DNA of 47,508 nucleotides from assembly GCA_007135395.1 (NCBI GenBank), contig SLIZ01000046.1, positions 1-47,508 on the forward strand, read 5' to 3'. The notes under the pieces are model-generated. The model was not told the DNA's origin and ran no database searches. It worked only from the letters and a program-made list of their open reading frames with translations. Below are positions 5,797 to 12,858 of this stretch, in pieces; position 1 is the stretch's first letter, and every line of letters starts with the position of its first letter. The translations under genes and the position numbers were made by a program. The stretch is from Wenzhouxiangellaceae bacterium. Its GTDB lineage: Bacteria > Pseudomonadota > Gammaproteobacteria > Xanthomonadales > Wenzhouxiangellaceae.

Positions 5797-6144
5797 TCAC
5801 TGCGGCTCGAACCTGTCGCGGAAGATCGTGTCGCCCAGCCAACGATATGCACCGATATCGCAGGGGCCGGCACCGCGGGGAGCGCCACGCAGATCGGTGG
5901 TCGGGCATTCACCTACCGCCGCACCGACTGCGGGGCTGTCCACCGTCGGCTGCATGCTGGGCAGGCCGCTGCCGTCGCTGATGTAGGGTTCCAGTCCGGG
6001 TGCGACGCCGAGTTGATCGCCGACCTGGGTATCGAAGCTGCACAGGTCCAGGTCATCGTTGGGGATCCATCCAATGCCTGTCGCGGAATTGCAGAAAAGA
6101 TTGCATTGGTCGTTCGGGAGGTAACTTCTCTGGCGAAGGCCCCG
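5797..6144 (-). pseudogene. 3' remnant of a beta-helix surface protein (choice-of-anchor-like C-terminus)
   Basis: The minus strand is open for about 115 codons and ends at TGA 5797-5799, but there is no plausible start: an in-frame TAA sits at 6145-6147. The C-terminal part contains DLRGAPRGAGPCDIGAY, the characteristic end of right-handed beta-helix, choice-of-anchor-Q-like surface proteins, followed by a short IFRDRFEP tail. Similar IFxDGFE tails are common at the ends of exported proteins in Xanthomonadales-related bacteria. The fragment breaks exactly where the Zur-like palindrome begins, so the 5' part was probably lost by deletion or replaced when the zinc locus arrived. It occupies most of the 450-base stretch between 5708 and 6161, where I see no intact gene. 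Confidence 0.6.
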
Positions 6145-6158
6145 TTATAATATAACGG
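6142..6158 (+). promoter_or_regulatory. Zur box 1, overlapping a -10 element
   Basis: CCGTTATAATATAACGG is a perfect inverted repeat with 8-base arms and a single central A. Its core GTTATAATATAAC matches the gammaproteobacterial Zur operator core (GTTATANTATAAC). A consensus TATAAT -10 hexamer (6146-6151) lies inside it, so a bound repressor would block RNA polymerase. It ends 3 bases before the ATG of the transporter/aminopropyltransferase fusion. Zinc-dependent repression is inferred from the motif and from the zinc-transport genes that follow. Confidence 0.8.
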
Positions 6159-6161
6159 CCT

Positions 6162-8744
6162 ATGGCCCATTCCACTTCCACGTCCCTGGCTCCAGCCCGA
6201 TTCATGCTGCTGGCCGGCCTGTTTTTCGTCTCCGGCTTTGCCGCGCTTGTCTATCAAGTGTTGTGGGTTCGCGAGCTGGGGTTGCTTTTCGGCAGTACCG
6301 CCCAGGCGGCGGCCCTGGCCATCGCCATCTTTTTTGCCGGGATCGCGCTGGGCGGCTGGTACTGGGGTCGCCGTGCCGGCAAGCAGGCAAGTGCACTGGC
6401 AACTTTCGGCTGGCTCGAGATCTCGGTGGCAGCGACGGCCCTTGGCCACTTTATTCTGCTGGATGTCTACCACCTGGCCTATCCGGCAATGTACTCGGCC
6501 GTTGGCCATGTCGGCCCGGCCGATACGGTGTTGAAGATACTGCTGGCCGCGCTGGTGCTTCTGCCACCGGCGTTTCTGATGGGCGGCACCTTGCCGATGC
6601 TGGGACAATACCTGATCCGGGTCCCTTCCGATCTGGGGCGGCTTGGCAGTCTTCTCTACGCCCTGAATACCGGCGGGGCGGCGTGCGGGGCGCTGGCTGC
6701 CGGCTTCGTCCTGCCGATGTGGCTGGGCTTCTCCGGTGCCTACGGCCTTGCAATTGGCCTGGATTTTCTGGTCGGCCTGTCTGCGCTGATCCTGGCGCGT
6801 CGCTGGAGTGAACAGTCGACCCGGACCCCGGTTCCGGAGGTGGAAAAGGCAACGACCGACACGGCGGTTTTGCCCCTGTCGGCCAGGCTGGTCTGGTTGA
6901 TTGCCTTTGTGTCCGGCATGACAGCCCTGGCTGTTGAGGTGATCTGGACACGCCTGTTTTCCCAGGTGCTGCAGAATTCGGTCTATACCTATGCCCTGGT
7001 CCTGGTTGTTTTCCTGCTGTCATTGACCCTGGGCGCGGCGCTGGCCAATCGCCTGTGCCGCCTGCCTCGGGCGAAGACCGGTATGGTGATGGTCGGATTG
7101 CTGGTGGCCTCGGCTGTGCTGGTTGCAGCTTCACCGGTCCTGTTCCAGTTCACAACCGATGGGCTGGGCTACGTGGGGGCGGGTCAGGCCTGGCACGATT
7201 ACCTGCGCAGTGTCGGCATCGTGGCCATCGTGGTCATGCTGGTCCCCGGTATGGTTCTGGGTGCGATATTGCCCTACCTGCTGCGTCTGCTTCAGGACCG
7301 CCGTGCCTCGGCCGGCGAATTGATCGGGCGGCTGATCGCGGTCAATACCGTGGGTGCGATCATCGGGGCGCTGGTTGCCGGTTTCGTGCTGCTGCCGCTG
7401 ATGGGCGCCACGCGCACCCTGCTATTGCTCGGCTCGGTTTACCTGGCCACGGCCGGACTGGTTCTGATTGCTCACAGGCGCACGCCGGCCCTTGCAGCAG
7501 CGCTGACGCTTTTTGTTCTGGCGCTGGTCGTACCAATGGCCCCATTGCAGAGTTTCAAGGTGGTTTCCCTGAACCCGGCCGCGGACGAGCGCCTTCTGGA
7601 CTTCGAGGAAGGCTCCCACGCCAGTGTGGCCGTCATCGAGCGTGAAGGCCATCGTCTGATCCGGGTCAATAATCATTACACGCTGGGCGGGACCGGCGCG
7701 CTGGAGTCTGAACGCAACCAGGCCCTGGTGCCCATGCTGATTCATCCGGACCCGAAAAAGGTGTTTTTCCTCGGTATGGGTACGGGCATCACCGCCGGAG
7801 CTTCCCTGCTTTTCCCGGTGGAGCGGGTCATGGTGTGTGAATTGCTGCCCGAAGTGGTGCGCCTGGCCCGGAAGCACTTCACGCCCTGGACCGAAGGCTT
7901 GTTTGAGGATTCCCGGGTCACAATACAGGCCGAAGACGGGCGCAATTGCCTGCGCCGGAGCCAGCAACGCTATGACTTGATCATCAGTGACCTGTTCACG
8001 CCATGGAAGGCGGGGACGGGCAATCTGTATACCTTGCAGCACTACGAAAACGCCAGTCAACGGTTGAAACCCGGCGGGATGTTCGTCCAGTGGGTCCCCA
8101 GTTATCAGGTCTCGGAATCCGAGCTGGGCATCATTGCCCGCACCATGGATGAGGCTTTCGAGCAGGTGGTCCTGTGGCGGGCTGATCTGTACCCGGCCCA
8201 GTCAGTGATCGGGCTGGTCGGACAAAATGAGCCGCAGCCGCTGGATCCCCAGGTACCGATCCGGCATGGGCGGATGCTGGCCGGGAACCCGGAGCTGCCG
8301 GACGATCTGCTTGCTGCAGTGGCCCTGCGGTTCTATGGGGGGAATATTACGGAATCCGGCCTGTTTGCCGATGCACCGCTGAACACCGATAACCGCCCGC
8401 TGATTGAATACCAGGCACCCCGCACTCAGCGCAAGGTGCAGGCCGGTCAGGCGCGTTGGCTGACCGGGGATCAACTGGGCCTGGTCTACGAACGTTTGTT
8501 CCAGCAGCCCGGTCTGGAGAACGATCCCTATTTGTCCTTGCTGAGTGAGGCGCAACGGGGGTTTGTGACCGCCGGCCGAAGCTATTTTCACTACGGTGTC
8601 TACCGCATGGCTGGCCAGGACGAACGGGCCGAGCTTTTTCTCCAGGATTTTCTGGCCAGAACGCCGTTTCAGCAGGCCCCGCCTGATCCCGAGCCTCCCA
8701 CGACCTTGTCTGATTGGGAAGAACGCCGGCCAGAATCCCGCTGA
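6162..8744 (+). CDS. Fused MFS-like transporter / spermidine-synthase-like protein
   Basis: This 860-residue protein has a hydrophobic N-terminal half with about 12 to 13 membrane helices (roughly 15-470; first helix FMLLAGLFFVSGFAALVYQV). A spermidine-synthase-fold domain occupies about 480-720. In that domain the nucleotide/decarboxylated-SAM loop is GMGTG (Gly538, 540, 542), Glu560 follows in VCELLPE, and Asp610 in IISDLF sits where aminopropyltransferases keep a catalytic Asp. About 140 further residues form the C-terminus. Fused MFS/spermidine synthases are widespread but mostly uncharacterised. The ATG at 6162 lies just after a Zur box, so the message may be nearly leaderless; ATG 6204, which starts MLLAGLFFVSG, is an alternative start. 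Being first in a zinc-uptake cluster suggests that it makes or moves a zinc-related amine or ligand, but the substrate is unknown. Confidence 0.88.
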   Translation: MAHSTSTSLAPARFMLLAGLFFVSGFAALVYQVLWVRELGLLFGSTAQAAALAIAIFFAGIALGGWYWGRRAGKQASALATFGWLEISVAATALGHFILLDVYHLAYPAMYSAVGHVGPADTVLKILLAALVLLPPAFLMGGTLPMLGQYLIRVPSDLGRLGSLLYALNTGGAACGALAAGFVLPMWLGFSGAYGLAIGLDFLVGLSALILARRWSEQSTRTPVPEVEKATTDTAVLPLSARLVWLIAFVSGMTALAVEVIWTRLFSQVLQNSVYTYALVLVVFLLSLTLGAALANRLCRLPRAKTGMVMVGLLVASAVLVAASPVLFQFTTDGLGYVGAGQAWHDYLRSVGIVAIVVMLVPGMVLGAILPYLLRLLQDRRASAGELIGRLIAVNTVGAIIGALVAGFVLLPLMGATRTLLLLGSVYLATAGLVLIAHRRTPALAAALTLFVLALVVPMAPLQSFKVVSLNPAADERLLDFEEGSHASVAVIEREGHRLIRVNNHYTLGGTGALESERNQALVPMLIHPDPKKVFFLGMGTGITAGASLLFPVERVMVCELLPEVVRLARKHFTPWTEGLFEDSRVTIQAEDGRNCLRRSQQRYDLIISDLFTPWKAGTGNLYTLQHYENASQRLKPGGMFVQWVPSYQVSESELGIIARTMDEAFEQVVLWRADLYPAQSVIGLVGQNEPQPLDPQVPIRHGRMLAGNPELPDDLLAAVALRFYGGNITESGLFADAPLNTDNRPLIEYQAPRTQRKVQAGQARWLTGDQLGLVYERLFQQPGLENDPYLSLLSEAQRGFVTAGRSYFHYGVYRMAGQDERAELFLQDFLARTPFQQAPPDPEPPTTLSDWEERRPESR

Positions 8745-8767
8745 GGGCTATAAATCTGTTCCGCAAT

Positions 8768-8780
8768 GTTATAAAATAAC
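8768..8780 (+). promoter_or_regulatory. Zur box 2
   Basis: GTTATAAAATAAC is an inverted repeat (arms GTTAT/ATAAC, 3-base centre). With its left flank, GCAATGTTATAAAATAAC, it differs at only two positions from the first 18 bases of the enterobacterial-type Zur consensus. It lies 88 bases upstream of the outer-membrane protein gene, inside the 124-base gap after the fusion gene. It therefore probably controls a second promoter serving the outer-membrane protein and the ABC transporter. Confidence 0.72.
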
Positions 8781-8868
8781 GCTCCGTAGAAAAGACCTGG
8801 GGTGCAAACCCAGACCCCGATCGTTCGAGACATTCGAGTTTCGAGTAAAAATTCAGGAGTAGCAAACG

Positions 8869-10464
8869 ATGAAATCAGTCATGCTTTTGGCATTGGGCGG
8901 CGTGCTCATGGCCGGCATTGCGGTAGCCGACGAGCCGACTCTTGGCGACCTGCTGCGCAAGATCGAAGCGCTCGAGGAGCGTGATCAGCAGCGCCAGGAA
9001 CAGATCGACCGGCTGGAGCGCGAACTGGCGGCCGAACGGGAAACCGAGGAGCGCCCAGCGGAAAGCGAGGAGCGTCCGGGCGAACCGACGGAGCAGCCGG
9101 AGCGCCCGCCCGCGACGGCCACCACCGGTCCGCAGACCGATCCGCTGGATCCGACCCCGGCCCGCATGCGGGCGGCTGGCTCGACCGGTGAAGTGACCTC
9201 CGGAACGGCCTTCAATCCGGCCATCTCGGTGATTCTTGATGGGACCTACGCCCACTTTTCTGATGATCTGGATGACCCGCCGGGCTTTGATTTCGGCCAC
9301 GGGCATGGTCACGGCGGCCACGGCCACGGAATCGAAGAGGGGCTCAACCTTCGTGAAGCCGAATTGACCCTTTCCGGTTCGGTGGATCCGTACTTCGACA
9401 TGATGGTCATGGCTGCGATCTCGGATTCGAATATCGAGCTCGAAGAGGCTTTCATCACGACCCGTGCCTTGCCCGCTGGTACCCAGATCAAGGCCGGCAA
9501 GTTCTTCAGTGACGTCGGCTATATCAACAAGCAGCACATTCATGACTGGCAGTTCGTCGACCAGCCCTGGATGCGCGAGCTGATGTTCGGCGATGAAGGA
9601 CTGAATGAAGTCGGAGTTCAGGCCTCCTGGCTACTGCCCACGGATACCTACACCCGCCTGGGTTTTGAGGTTCTCGAGGGCACCAGCAGCGGGATTGCAA
9701 ATTTCGAGGGTGACGGGCGCCATGAATTGGTCACGGTACTTCCGGGCGATGACAACGAGCCCCAGCGCAATCGCTGGCGAGCCGACAAGAACCTGACCGA
9801 TACCAACGGCCCGCGCCTGTTTACCGGATTTGCCAAATGGGCTCCCGATCTGGGTTTTGACCACGCCATCCAGCTGGGTGCCTCGGGCGGCTACAGCCGG
9901 GTCTGGCAGAACGAAACCGGTCATTCCTCTGGTCGCCTGGAGACCTGGGATGGTGACAGTCGCTTTGTCGGTGCCGACCTGGTCTACAAATACGGCCGTG
10001 GAGGCCTGATGGGGCATGGCAACTTCGTCCTGCAGGCCGAGTACGTCTATCGCGAGCTGGACGTCGAGTACCAAAGCCGCCAGTTCTCCGATTTTTCCAC
10101 CCTGGCACTGACCGGACCGTCGGATGATCCTGATCAGCGCGACCAGCGCTGGAAGCAGGACGCTTTCTATCTCCAGGGAGTGTACGGCTTTGCACCACGC
10201 TGGAATGCGGGGCTGCGGATGGATGGTGTCGGCCTGACGAACCGGACCTTCGACGATGGCACTGATGACCTTGGACGACGGGGCATGCGCGGTGACCTTG
10301 GCGCATCCTGGCGCTACAGTAGCCAGGTCACCTTCGCCCCGACCGAATTCTCACGCCTGCGTGGTCAGGTCAGTTATATCGACCTGGACGACGGTCATGA
10401 TGGCTGGCAATTCATGCTTCAGTACAACATGAGTCTGGGTGTCCACGGTGCGCACGCATTCTGA
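8869..10464 (+). CDS. Outer-membrane beta-barrel protein with His-rich segment, putative zinc channel
   Basis: The 531-residue precursor has a signal peptide (about 1-21, ending AVA-D), a coiled-coil segment (about 25-65) and a Glu/Pro-rich linker (about 65-115). A His-Gly cluster follows (His144, 146, 148, 151, 153), then about 370 residues of alternating hydrophobic and aromatic pattern typical of a porin-like barrel. It ends in phenylalanine, the usual outer-membrane sorting signal. The coiled coil suggests trimerisation. No TonB box or plug domain is seen, so it is not an ordinary TonB-dependent receptor. The His cluster could bind zinc at the mouth of the pore. Zur box 2 upstream and znuA downstream place it in zinc acquisition; that role is inferred, as I recognise no characterised close relative. 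Confidence 0.8.
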   Translation: MKSVMLLALGGVLMAGIAVADEPTLGDLLRKIEALEERDQQRQEQIDRLERELAAERETEERPAESEERPGEPTEQPERPPATATTGPQTDPLDPTPARMRAAGSTGEVTSGTAFNPAISVILDGTYAHFSDDLDDPPGFDFGHGHGHGGHGHGIEEGLNLREAELTLSGSVDPYFDMMVMAAISDSNIELEEAFITTRALPAGTQIKAGKFFSDVGYINKQHIHDWQFVDQPWMRELMFGDEGLNEVGVQASWLLPTDTYTRLGFEVLEGTSSGIANFEGDGRHELVTVLPGDDNEPQRNRWRADKNLTDTNGPRLFTGFAKWAPDLGFDHAIQLGASGGYSRVWQNETGHSSGRLETWDGDSRFVGADLVYKYGRGGLMGHGNFVLQAEYVYRELDVEYQSRQFSDFSTLALTGPSDDPDQRDQRWKQDAFYLQGVYGFAPRWNAGLRMDGVGLTNRTFDDGTDDLGRRGMRGDLGASWRYSSQVTFAPTEFSRLRGQVSYIDLDDGHDGWQFMLQYNMSLGVHGAHAF

Positions 10465-10586: not shown

Positions 10587-11465
10587 ATGAAAAAGTTTCT
10601 GGCAGGTTTGATCCTGACACTGATCTCGATCCAGGCCGTCGCTGAAGTTCGCGTGGTGGCCACCGTACCCAATATGGGCATGCTTGCCCGCGCGGTCGGT
10701 GGTGATGCCGTTTCGGTAACCGTTCTGGCACCGCCGGATCGGGATGCCCACTACCTCGAGGCCCGCCCGTCAATGATGTCGGCGCTTCGTCGCGCCGATA
10801 TCGTCGTCGCGGTCGGGGCCGAGCTCGAAGTTGGCTGGTTGCCGGCAGCCCTGCAGGGCGCACACAATCCCAGAGTCCAGCCGGGCCGTAGCGGATACTT
10901 CGAAGGGGCGGCCCACACCAGCCTGATCCAGGTCGGCGGTGCGGCCGACCGTGCCCAGGGCGATGTTCACCCGGCGGGCAACCCGCACTACTACTTCGAT
11001 CCCGAGCGCATGGCCGAAATCGGATATGCGCTGGCCAGCCGTCTGGGTGAGCTCGATTCGGACAATGCGGACCAGTATCGGGCCAACGCCGAGGAATTTG
11101 CTCAACAGGCTGAAGACCAGGTTGCTGAGTGGAAGTCCCGAGTCGATGATCCGCCTGGCGTGGTTTTTTATCACAAGGATGCGGACTATCTTGCCAAGCT
11201 GCTGGACGCGGATATTCTCGGATATCTCGAGCCCTTGCCTGGTATTCCGCCCACTGCCAGTCATCTCAGGGAGCTTGTCGGCAGCTTACGCGGCACCGAC
11301 GGCGTGATTTTGTATACAGACTTTCAGTCAAGCAGCGGCGCTGATTTCCTCGCTCGTGAACTCGGCTGGTCAGCCCACCAGTTGCCCAACCAGATCGCGA
11401 TTGATGGTAGTGTCGATGACTATTTTTCCATGATCGAACGCTGGGTCGAGGCCATAGTTCGCTGA
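10587..11465 (+). CDS. znuA: Zinc ABC transporter substrate-binding protein (ZnuA/TroA family)
   Basis: A 292-residue periplasmic protein with signal peptide 1-19 (MKKFLAGLILTLISIQAVA). The cluster A-1 binding protein fold is shown by RVVATVPNMGMLARAVGGD and by the expected metal ligands: His55 in DAHYLEARPS, His128 or His134 in GDVHPAGNPHYYFDP, His196 in FYHKDADYL, and probably Asp245 in LYTDF. The flexible His/Asp-rich loop typical of ZnuA is absent, so it is a compact form that may rely on the His-rich outer-membrane partner instead. Zinc rather than manganese is inferred from the Zur boxes upstream. The ATPase gene follows after 20 bases. Confidence 0.85.
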   Translation: MKKFLAGLILTLISIQAVAEVRVVATVPNMGMLARAVGGDAVSVTVLAPPDRDAHYLEARPSMMSALRRADIVVAVGAELEVGWLPAALQGAHNPRVQPGRSGYFEGAAHTSLIQVGGAADRAQGDVHPAGNPHYYFDPERMAEIGYALASRLGELDSDNADQYRANAEEFAQQAEDQVAEWKSRVDDPPGVVFYHKDADYLAKLLDADILGYLEPLPGIPPTASHLRELVGSLRGTDGVILYTDFQSSSGADFLARELGWSAHQLPNQIAIDGSVDDYFSMIERWVEAIVR

Positions 11466-11485: not shown

Positions 11486-12073
11486 ATGCTGGTCTGCTTC
11501 GACCAGCTTGTTGTCGGATATACGGGGCCCGTCGTTGGCCCCGTTTCCTTTTCCCTGTATGCGGGGGAGGTTCTGGGGCTTGGCGGTGCCAACGGTGCCG
11601 GCAAATCGACGCTGCTGCGCGCCCTGACCGGCACGGCTCATATCTTTTCCGGGCGGATCGAGCGCCGCGACGAGCTGCGAGTCGTGCATCACCGACAGCG
11701 ACCCGAAAGGCCACCGGAACTTCCGCTGCTCGGCCGTGAGATGCTGGCTCTGCTTGATGCCGAGTCGGACCCTTCTGCACTGGGAAACGAAGCGATCGAG
11801 AAGTTGATTGCACCACTGCTGGATCAACCGGTCGGCCGGATGAGCGGTGGCCAGTACCAGCTGCTCCAGGCCTGGGCCTGTCTGAACAGCAATGCCCATG
11901 TGGTCCTGCTCGACGAGCCGACCAACAACCTCGACGGCCAGGCAATCGACGCCCTGGGGACCGTGCTTCGTCAAATGGGCTTGGAGCGATCAGCAATTCT
12001 GGTCAGCCATGAGCAGGCTTTTCTGGAAGCCAACTGTGATCGCCAACTGGATGTCAGTGAATGGACGGTCTGA
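11486..12073 (+). CDS. znuC: Zinc ABC transporter ATP-binding protein
   Basis: A 195-residue ATPase. Walker A is GGANGAGKST, the signature is MSGGQYQLLQ, Walker B is VVLLDEPTNNLD, and the H-loop is SHE, so it should be catalytically active. It is shorter than typical ZnuC (about 250 residues): it ends just after the nucleotide-binding core and lacks a C-terminal extension. It begins 20 bases after znuA and overlaps the permease start by 13 bases, indicating translational coupling. Confidence 0.85.
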   Translation: MLVCFDQLVVGYTGPVVGPVSFSLYAGEVLGLGGANGAGKSTLLRALTGTAHIFSGRIERRDELRVVHHRQRPERPPELPLLGREMLALLDAESDPSALGNEAIEKLIAPLLDQPVGRMSGGQYQLLQAWACLNSNAHVVLLDEPTNNLDGQAIDALGTVLRQMGLERSAILVSHEQAFLEANCDRQLDVSEWTV

Positions 12074-12858
12074 TTATTTTCGATCCACTTTTCCGAGTGC
12101 CGTTCTTCAATGGCCTCGTGCTGGCCATCGCGCTGTCGGCCATTGGTGCCTATCTTCGCCTGCGTGATGAATGGCTGTCGGCCTTTTCATTGTCCCAGGT
12201 GGCTGCTGCCGGGGGCGTGCTTGCCTTGCCGCTGGGTCTTCCGATTCTGTTGACTGCAAGCCTGTCGGCCGGATTAGTCGCCCTGGTTTTCGGCCTCATG
12301 TCCCGCGTCGACAACAACCATTACGGCTGGACGATTCTTCTGGGCTGGGCGGCCGCCCTGGTGCTGGCCGCCAATACTCATCAGGGCAGTGTCATTGTTG
12401 AAGCCCTGCTGCGCGGCCAGCTTTACTTTTCCAGCATCTATCATCTGATTGCCGGGCTGGTCTTGCTGGGATTTGTCCTGGTTATTCTGCCCTGGCTGTC
12501 TTCACGCCTGATGACCGGGCGTTTCTTCCCGGATTACTTCCGGGCCAATCGCATGCCGACCTGGCATCATCGCTTGCCATTTGCGCTTCTGGTGGTGTTT
12601 GCCGTGGTCCTGGGAACGGTGGCCATGGGTGCTGTTCCGGCCTTTGCCATTTCTTTTGTACCAGCCTGGGTAGCCTTTGTGCTGTGCAAGGGCTGGCGAA
12701 AAGCCCTGTTTCTGGCCGTATTGCTGGCAGTGGCGGCCTACCTGGTCGGCTTCTCAATTGCCATCCAGTTCGATCAGCCGTTTGGTCCGACTCTGGTCAT
12801 CGTACTGGCACTGCTTGCACCGTTACGCCTGCTTGCAAGCCGGACACGACCGGAATGA
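12061..12858 (+). CDS. znuB: Zinc ABC transporter permease (ABC-3 family)
   Basis: A 265-residue inner-membrane protein with about 7 to 8 hydrophobic helices along its whole length, matching the ABC-3 permeases of metal importers. The usual SHA/ALGG-type segment near helix 2 appears in a divergent form (SLSQVAAAGG). It overlaps the ATPase gene and is the last gene of the zinc cluster. The next gene is convergent, and the 139-base gap has only a weak inverted repeat (CCAGCAA/TTGCTGG). Assignment rests on topology and position as much as on sequence. Confidence 0.8.
   Translation: MDGLIIFDPLFRVPFFNGLVLAIALSAIGAYLRLRDEWLSAFSLSQVAAAGGVLALPLGLPILLTASLSAGLVALVFGLMSRVDNNHYGWTILLGWAAALVLAANTHQGSVIVEALLRGQLYFSSIYHLIAGLVLLGFVLVILPWLSSRLMTGRFFPDYFRANRMPTWHHRLPFALLVVFAVVLGTVAMGAVPAFAISFVPAWVAFVLCKGWRKALFLAVLLAVAAYLVGFSIAIQFDQPFGPTLVIVLALLAPLRLLASRTRPE

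Follow-up and report, generated by a model that had tools for sequence, protein, structure and literature searches.

The porin gene and its neighbours

The window, by which we mean the whole stretch of DNA that was analysed (47.5 kb), carries a gene encoding a porin-like outer-membrane protein of 531 aa. Genes of the ZnuA, ZnuC and ZnuB type lie directly downstream, a fused MFS/spermidine-synthase-like gene lies upstream, and Zur-like palindromes precede both the upstream gene and the porin gene, as follows:

6143-6157, + strand: Zur-like palindrome CGTTATAATATAACG, ending 4 bases before the ATG of the MFS/spermidine-synthase-like gene
6162-8744, + strand: fused MFS/spermidine-synthase-like protein, 860 aa, upstream of the porin
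8767-8781, + strand: Zur-like palindrome TGTTATAAAATAACG, matching at 12 of 14 scored positions; 87 bases separate its end from the ATG of the porin gene
8869-10464, + strand: porin-like outer-membrane protein, 531 aa (ORF call, AlphaFold2 model, structural matches)
10587-11465, + strand: metal-binding protein of the ZnuA type, lacking a long His loop (PF01297, E 1.8e-41)
11486-12073, + strand: ABC transporter ATPase, ZnuC-type (PF00005, E 2.7e-18)
12061-12858, + strand: ABC transporter permease (ABC-3), ZnuB-type (PF00950, E 2.6e-15)

The ZnuA-type neighbour is a member of PF01297 (142.8 bits against a cut-off of 29). It is the sole PF01297 match of the genome assembly, which is 92% complete and contains one match each to the porin and to ZnuA. 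Among the NCBIfam models its best matches were AztC (zinc; the equivalog model NF040870, 82 bits against a cut-off of 350) and then MntC (manganese), both below cut-off. Binding protein, ATPase and permease are also the components of ZnuABC and of AztABC, and we know of no partner porin for the latter. In AztC, a flexible loop with three histidines is needed for zinc transfer (PMC7463823, in part), and the loop of the window's ZnuA-type protein likewise contains three histidines.

Allowing at most three mismatches, the Zur consensus was matched twice in the whole window (at 6143 and 8767) against 0.10 matches expected; the scan covered the Zur consensus alone, and a box is here a sequence match only. 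With these two boxes, the only ones in the window at this threshold, and with the znuA-, znuC- and znuB-type genes directly downstream of the porin, the zinc context given to this locus in a preliminary description was borne out. The window's genome also encodes two Fur-family regulators, one of which scored best against the Zur model (134.6 bits, under the cut-off of 167).

The 531-aa protein had no match over cut-off in Pfam or NCBIfam, and with Porin_4, Porin_O_P and BBP2 it stayed under the curated cut-offs. MipA, TraB and FapF were rejected as its family, their matches being weak or below cut-off, and an identity as a TonB receptor of the ZnuD type was set aside, as there was no plug or TonB-receptor Pfam match in the 531 aa. 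A phage origin was rejected with no PHROGs match, and a plasmid origin with two remote records of the plasmid collection at 26-29% identity, of which one is a 2.06 Mb replicon from Vibrio. Elsewhere in the window's genome there are eight TonB-receptor matches, which could be zinc carriers.

Predicted fold and position of the His-Gly cluster

An AlphaFold2 model of the single chain was computed on an alignment of 22 rows (mean pLDDT 76.5). It places in order a helix (residues 25-60), a low-confidence Pro-rich linker (64-114), a strand (118-130), the His segment and a further strand (158-173). The parts of the protein on which the argument turns are these:

8941-9048, + strand: long helix, probable coiled coil, presumed periplasmic, residues 25-60 (AlphaFold2)
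9220-9258, + strand: first barrel strand, residues 118-130 (AlphaFold2; the OprO, OprP and OmpC alignments begin at model residues 106-112)
9298-9327, + strand: His-Gly cluster, residues 144-153, in predicted outer loop L1 (131-157) (ORF, AlphaFold2 model)
9340-9387, + strand: second barrel strand (residues 158-173), which contains the conserved residues E165 and D173 (AlphaFold2; column counts)
9535-9543, + strand: HxH motif, H223 and H225, in loop L3 (family column counts)
10444-10455, + strand: HxxH motif (H526, H529) where the last strand ends on the inner, C-terminal side (family column counts)

The predicted structure contains 19 strand stretches, or 16 if 284-291, 299-306 and 471-476 are taken as loop excursions, and the porin fold covers about residues 111-523. 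Its best structural matches are OprO and OprP (Z 26.1-26.4, rmsd 3.0-3.8 Å, 310-313 aligned residues), and OprP, by the title of its structure entry, has an arginine ladder for phosphate. The model of a distant family member (L123), which carries a His patch in loop L5, takes the same OprP-like fold, with 16 strands if 57-60 and 63-70 count as one; a low-confidence segment (220-235) between its strands 9 and 10 would be outer by strand count. Among the best 50 matches of each of the two models, the solved 16-strand porins gave Z 22.3-26.8 over 260-313 residues. The porin is predicted to form a 16-strand barrel of the OprP/OmpC type, the same fold as in OprP/OprO, OmpC, OmpF, OmpT and DcaP (Z 23.3 for DcaP). 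Identity to OprP/OprO and to general porins is 6-17% in the aligned part, and the window porin is unlike general porins in its conserved His and Glu positions and in the coupling of its gene to that of a metal-binding protein.

In such porins the N-terminus is periplasmic, and strand parity assigns L1 to L8 to the outer face and the C-terminus to the inner one. Lying between strands 118-130 and 158-173, the His segment is loop L1, the first strand-to-strand loop of the barrel, and by strand count in the model the cluster is likely exposed at the outer mouth of the pore. The pore-entrance position proposed in the preliminary description is likely right on this count. The same description had placed the cluster between a Pro-rich coiled-coil stalk and the barrel, which the predicted strand 118-130 ahead of the His segment contradicts and which we have discarded. 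The segment itself (143-152) has a pLDDT below 50.

DcaP and ScrY porins have periplasmic trimeric coiled coils, that of DcaP at the N-terminus as is predicted for the window porin (PMC6173795, in part), and for this reason the stalk helix is probably on the inner side. The modelled helix 25-60 suggests that the protein forms an oligomer, for which we infer a trimeric state.

The cluster itself was found exactly as described at first, with five histidines (144, 146, 148, 151 and 153) within residues 144-153 (window 9298-9327); residues 143-154 read GHGHGHGGHGHG. The other histidines of the protein are at 129, 223, 225, 285, 332, 352, 383, 510, 526 and 529. Five histidines in 10 residues were reached by 45 of 100,000 permutations of the same protein and by 2 of the 120 ORFs of at least 150 aa in the window's six frames. 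A fresh codon-repeat expansion could be ruled out as the source because the codons of the cluster are mixed (His CAC and CAT; Gly GGC, GGG, GGT and GGA). A sequence search of solved structures returned only SLC30A1 chains, matched on their His run (E 0.63-0.64).

Constant and variable histidines across the porin family

The family was collected by porin sequence alone. Porin matches were found in 110 of the 369 genomes of the class and in 44 of the 398 genomes of the phylum sample, the window's own genome being counted in both; 69 others of the 110 class genomes, taken roughly by rank, went into the neighbour analysis. With shorter ORFs dropped, the family comprised 117 non-redundant ORFs of at least 330 codons from 116 loci, and three sequences (L010, L012 and L015) were aligned only and are absent from the later family analyses. 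Most close relatives (52-79% identity) are from genomes assembled from metagenomes, whose isolate codes (CSSed, for example) we take to stand for soda-lake sediments; another source is Halospina denitrificans, whose homologue in L032 comes from the culture-collection strain DSM 15505. A Pfam scan of 33 members put one (L012) over the Porin_O_P cut-off (23.3 against 20.9 bits), with the other porin-family matches listed below cut-off; this is a large porin family hardly covered by Pfam and NCBIfam.

A ZnuA-type gene lies at most 600 nt downstream on the same strand in 109 of the 117 members (104 by a stricter rule). Among 60 control porins, made up of the 30 best of PF13609 and 30 of PF07396, none had such a neighbour within flanks of 1.5 kb. 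The linkage is no artefact of gathering, because the searches used the porin alone. The eight members without a downstream binding-protein gene are L174, L031 and L171 (at most 40 bases of downstream sequence), L172, L077, L079 and two tandem copies. L172 lacks the family C-terminus and has no binding-protein gene in 3.6 kb, and L077 and L079 have none in the 4.7-6.0 kb downstream.

Two pairs of histidines run through the family: HxH in L3 is present in 115 of 117 members and HxxHx[FY] at the C-terminus in 110 of 117, and all 109 members with a ZnuA-type neighbour keep both. Column counts over 112 rows, which leave out L031, L172, L174, L077 and L079 (the last two without the C-terminal motif), gave H223 in 112, H225 in 110, H526 in 111 and H529 in 110; the acidic positions E391, E192, E165 and D173 were found in 112, 111, 110 and 108 rows, respectively.

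The tandem copies stand beside the main porin in L074 (7911-9155, - strand) and L075 (5791-7053, + strand); both have lost the two His motifs, and no binding-protein gene follows them. L077 and L079 have lost the C-terminal HxxHx[FY] and have His-containing tails instead (DPHAGHHHGHDH and GGHRHAH). About two independent events account for the loss of the C-terminal motif in members that lack a binding-protein gene. This comparison of sequences is a hint, short of proof, that the C-terminal His pair serves hand-over to the binding protein.

At least three histidines in L1 were counted in 31 of the 117 members. This trait was placed on a tree of 107 rows from which the L1 columns had been removed, leaving aside L031, L172 and L174 (cut or disrupted) and seven remote rows (L128-L134). 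It needs 3 changes on the tree against 26.5 for shuffled labels, and 28 of the 30 His-L1 rows on the tree fall within one group of 35. An inner group of 30 (support 94) holds 28 rows with at least three L1 histidines, its two exceptions being tandem copies. The L1 cluster marks mainly one clade, within which the length and letters of the loop vary (HGHGHGGHGH, HDHHDHDH, HGHEDEGGGENEHAHGG) and its His-richness stays.

The other outer loops were compared by counting patches, defined as at least three histidines in 14 residues, in a tally without L3. Patches were found in L1 (30 members), L5 (23), L7 (3), L8 (3) and L4 (2), with none in L2 or L6, some members having two. An outer-loop patch is present in 49 of the 117 members. 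Of the 87 members in which L1 has no patch, 19 carry one in a different outer loop, 17 of them in L5. The L5 patches need 11 changes on the tree against 4 for the L1 patches. No patch was found in the inner turn T5, the other inner turns being too short for a fair comparison. When the ORF is taken as a whole, 41 of the 117 members and one of the 60 control porins have at least four histidines within 14 residues; for at least three, the counts are 80 of 117 and 5 of 60. Judged from these sequences, the recurring feature is a His-rich outer loop in general and not L1 specifically. As many as 68 of the 117 members are without a His-rich outer loop, and the patch is therefore not needed for basic function. 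The parts that stay constant are the His pairs of L3 and the C-terminus (223/225 and 526/529), which are probably functional, and the eye-catching cluster to which the preliminary description had drawn attention is a variable accessory located elsewhere in the protein.

That description had also tied its reading to the presence of the cluster in orthologues with a Zur box and znuA linkage. This holds inside the clade, where the L1 histidines are kept, and fails for the distant L102, L083, L122, L123 and others, which have no L1 cluster; L122 and L123 have a His patch in L5 instead, and L102 and L083 have none. Boxes matching at least 11 of 14 positions were found upstream of 26 of the 110 members included in this count (out of 117) against 16 of 1468 control stretches. 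The 26 comprise 13 of the 31 His-L1 members and 13 of the remaining 79. The remaining 84 of 110 upstream regions showed no good Zur-like box, a figure in which box drift and far starts would hide some.

The mean number of L1 histidines is 5.3 against 0.30 between the two groups, a difference that is partly by construction, the groups having been split on L1 histidines. Adjoining ZnuC/ZnuB genes accompany 26 of the 31 L1-His members against 2 of the 86 others, largely as one clade and not as independent events, of which only three usable pairs are available. This linkage was scored with the window's own ZnuC and ZnuB as queries, a search that misses permeases. In the other clade an ABC-3 permease follows the binding protein in four of five tested loci (L080, L084, L088 and L101). 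A Sulfurovum plasmid record (L176, 5536-7148) has porin and binding protein, then an ABC-3 permease, with no ATPase annotated adjacent. The ATPase of the Sulfurovum and other-clade systems may be shared from elsewhere.

The preliminary description had further seen in the cluster the counterpart of a His-rich loop missing from ZnuA. In a first set of porin-linked binding proteins (45 distinct proteins in 46 rows, L094 repeating L026), the loop is 35-39 aa long with 2-6 histidines, and it is equally short whether L1 of the porin has 0 or 10 histidines. All 45 are without a long loop, with or without L1 histidines, and the idea that the cluster replaces it is not supported. In another two ZnuA-type proteins, encoded in L081 and L086, the loop stretch contains 6 and 7 histidines.

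A putative porin-type route for zinc

How zinc crosses the outer membrane of Gram-negatives that have no zinc-specific TonB receptor is poorly known. One stated route is passive diffusion through general porins (PMC13098993, in part). In Neisseria, outer-membrane uptake of zinc is carried out by ZnuD, whose extracellular loop 3 has two His/Asp-rich clusters and whose loops are likened to a fishing net for zinc (PMC4557270, in part); its loop clusters are akin to L1 of the window porin, and Zur-regulated TonB receptors are listed for the same genus (PMC6103462, in part). ZnuD is a TonB-dependent receptor with a plug, whereas the window porin has no plug or TonB-receptor match. MspD of Mycobacterium smegmatis is a porin that is induced by zinc starvation and by loss of Zur and is proposed to supply zinc to ZnuABC; it belongs to the Msp porins of the mycobacterial outer membrane, is regarded as an octamer (PMC13098993, in part), and is of a different kind from the window porin.

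Starting from the computed fold, loop position, conservation, linkage and boxes, we infer zinc as the substrate, metal binding, a path through the pore and hand-over to ZnuA. We favour, with moderate confidence, a TonB-independent porin-type channel for zinc or a similar divalent metal, with a His-rich L1 as capture loop and an ABC importer co-made at low zinc. The porin and its own ABC importer would be made when zinc is scarce, and the flexible His-Gly loop L1 would hold many metal ions weakly at the pore mouth, raising their local concentration. The ions would then pass the HxH of L3 and the acidic residues of the barrel wall and reach the HxxH at the inner rim, from which they could be taken over by the co-encoded ZnuA-type protein and delivered to the ABC importer.

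A wider claim, which we put forward only tentatively, is that a whole class of TonB-independent metal channels exists, each with its own binding protein, with a His-rich capture loop moved among the outer loops and with a fixed path of His and Glu residues (HxH in L3, Glu in the barrel, HxxH at the C-terminus) leading directly to the docked binding protein. If true, such a class would be a passive, high-affinity counterpart of ZnuD. The family supplies named residues and clean predictions: ZnuA linkage in 109 of 117 members, four almost invariant histidines and a recurring His-rich outer loop.

It seems unlikely to us that a general metal porin serves the ABC importer and that its His-rich loops have no role, being low-complexity sequence that is simply tolerated. 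Such neutrality would fit the low pLDDT of the loops (below 50), their variable length and letters and their absence from many members, but 28 of the 30 rows of a clade found without the L1 columns keep at least three L1 histidines despite the change of the loop, the same make-up has been gained in L5 by 17 members without an L1 patch, with 11 tree changes for L5, and such stretches are rare in control porins.

Less probable again is a different cargo, either another metal (Ni, Co, Mn or Cu) or a metal in complexed instead of free form. Binding by poly-His loops extends to Ni, Co and Cu, and there are Mn binders among the ZnuA-type proteins, with the window's protein scoring below cut-off against AztC first and MntC second. 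The product of the upstream MFS/spermidine-synthase-like gene, which is preceded by a Zur-like box of its own, could conceivably synthesise a small ligand. Against this, the box fits the Zur consensus, the only one scanned, and the genome has a Zur-like regulator, albeit with a score under the cut-off.

We consider improbable, and give least credit to, a metal- or pH-dependent gate, in which metal on the His loop shuts the pore mouth to protect the cell from surplus metal, or in which the loop acts as a pH sensor. Porin outer loops are able to fold across the pore mouth, and histidines would be uncharged in the presumed soda-lake sediments of the close relatives with CSSed codes, but Zur-like control would turn the gene off and not on at high zinc, and the gene adjoins importer genes.

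For the zinc channel that we favour, the porin fold, the zinc-operon context and His-rich capture loops (ZnuD) are already known. What appears to be new is the combination, a so far unnamed porin family coupled to a ZnuA-type gene, in which the His pairs are near-invariant and the His-rich loop shifts position; it is absent from the open-access papers listed. Among the best matches by title and abstract in that literature there was no zinc porin of this kind, and MspD, a different porin, did appear.

Some observations on the surroundings may be added. In six close-relative loci (L026, L027, L028, L031, L082 and L093) the MFS/spermidine-synthase-like gene is again the immediate upstream neighbour of the porin gene and reads in the same direction. 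Boxes at 10-11 of 14 positions stand ahead of this gene in L026, L031, L082, L093 and L065, with 8 in L072 and the region cut off in L027; its product might make or export a small metal ligand. A 62% identical porin together with the whole operon was found in L029 (SLRP01000228.1), a genome labelled Kiritimatiellae, reflecting either lateral transfer or a mis-binned contig. In the window's own genome, the gene of the Zur-like regulator and that of a Porin_O_P porin are about 3.5 kb apart (G000:C29, 3613-3972 and 7454-8500), with a response-regulator-like ORF near the regulator, and this region may be a phosphate-type locus.
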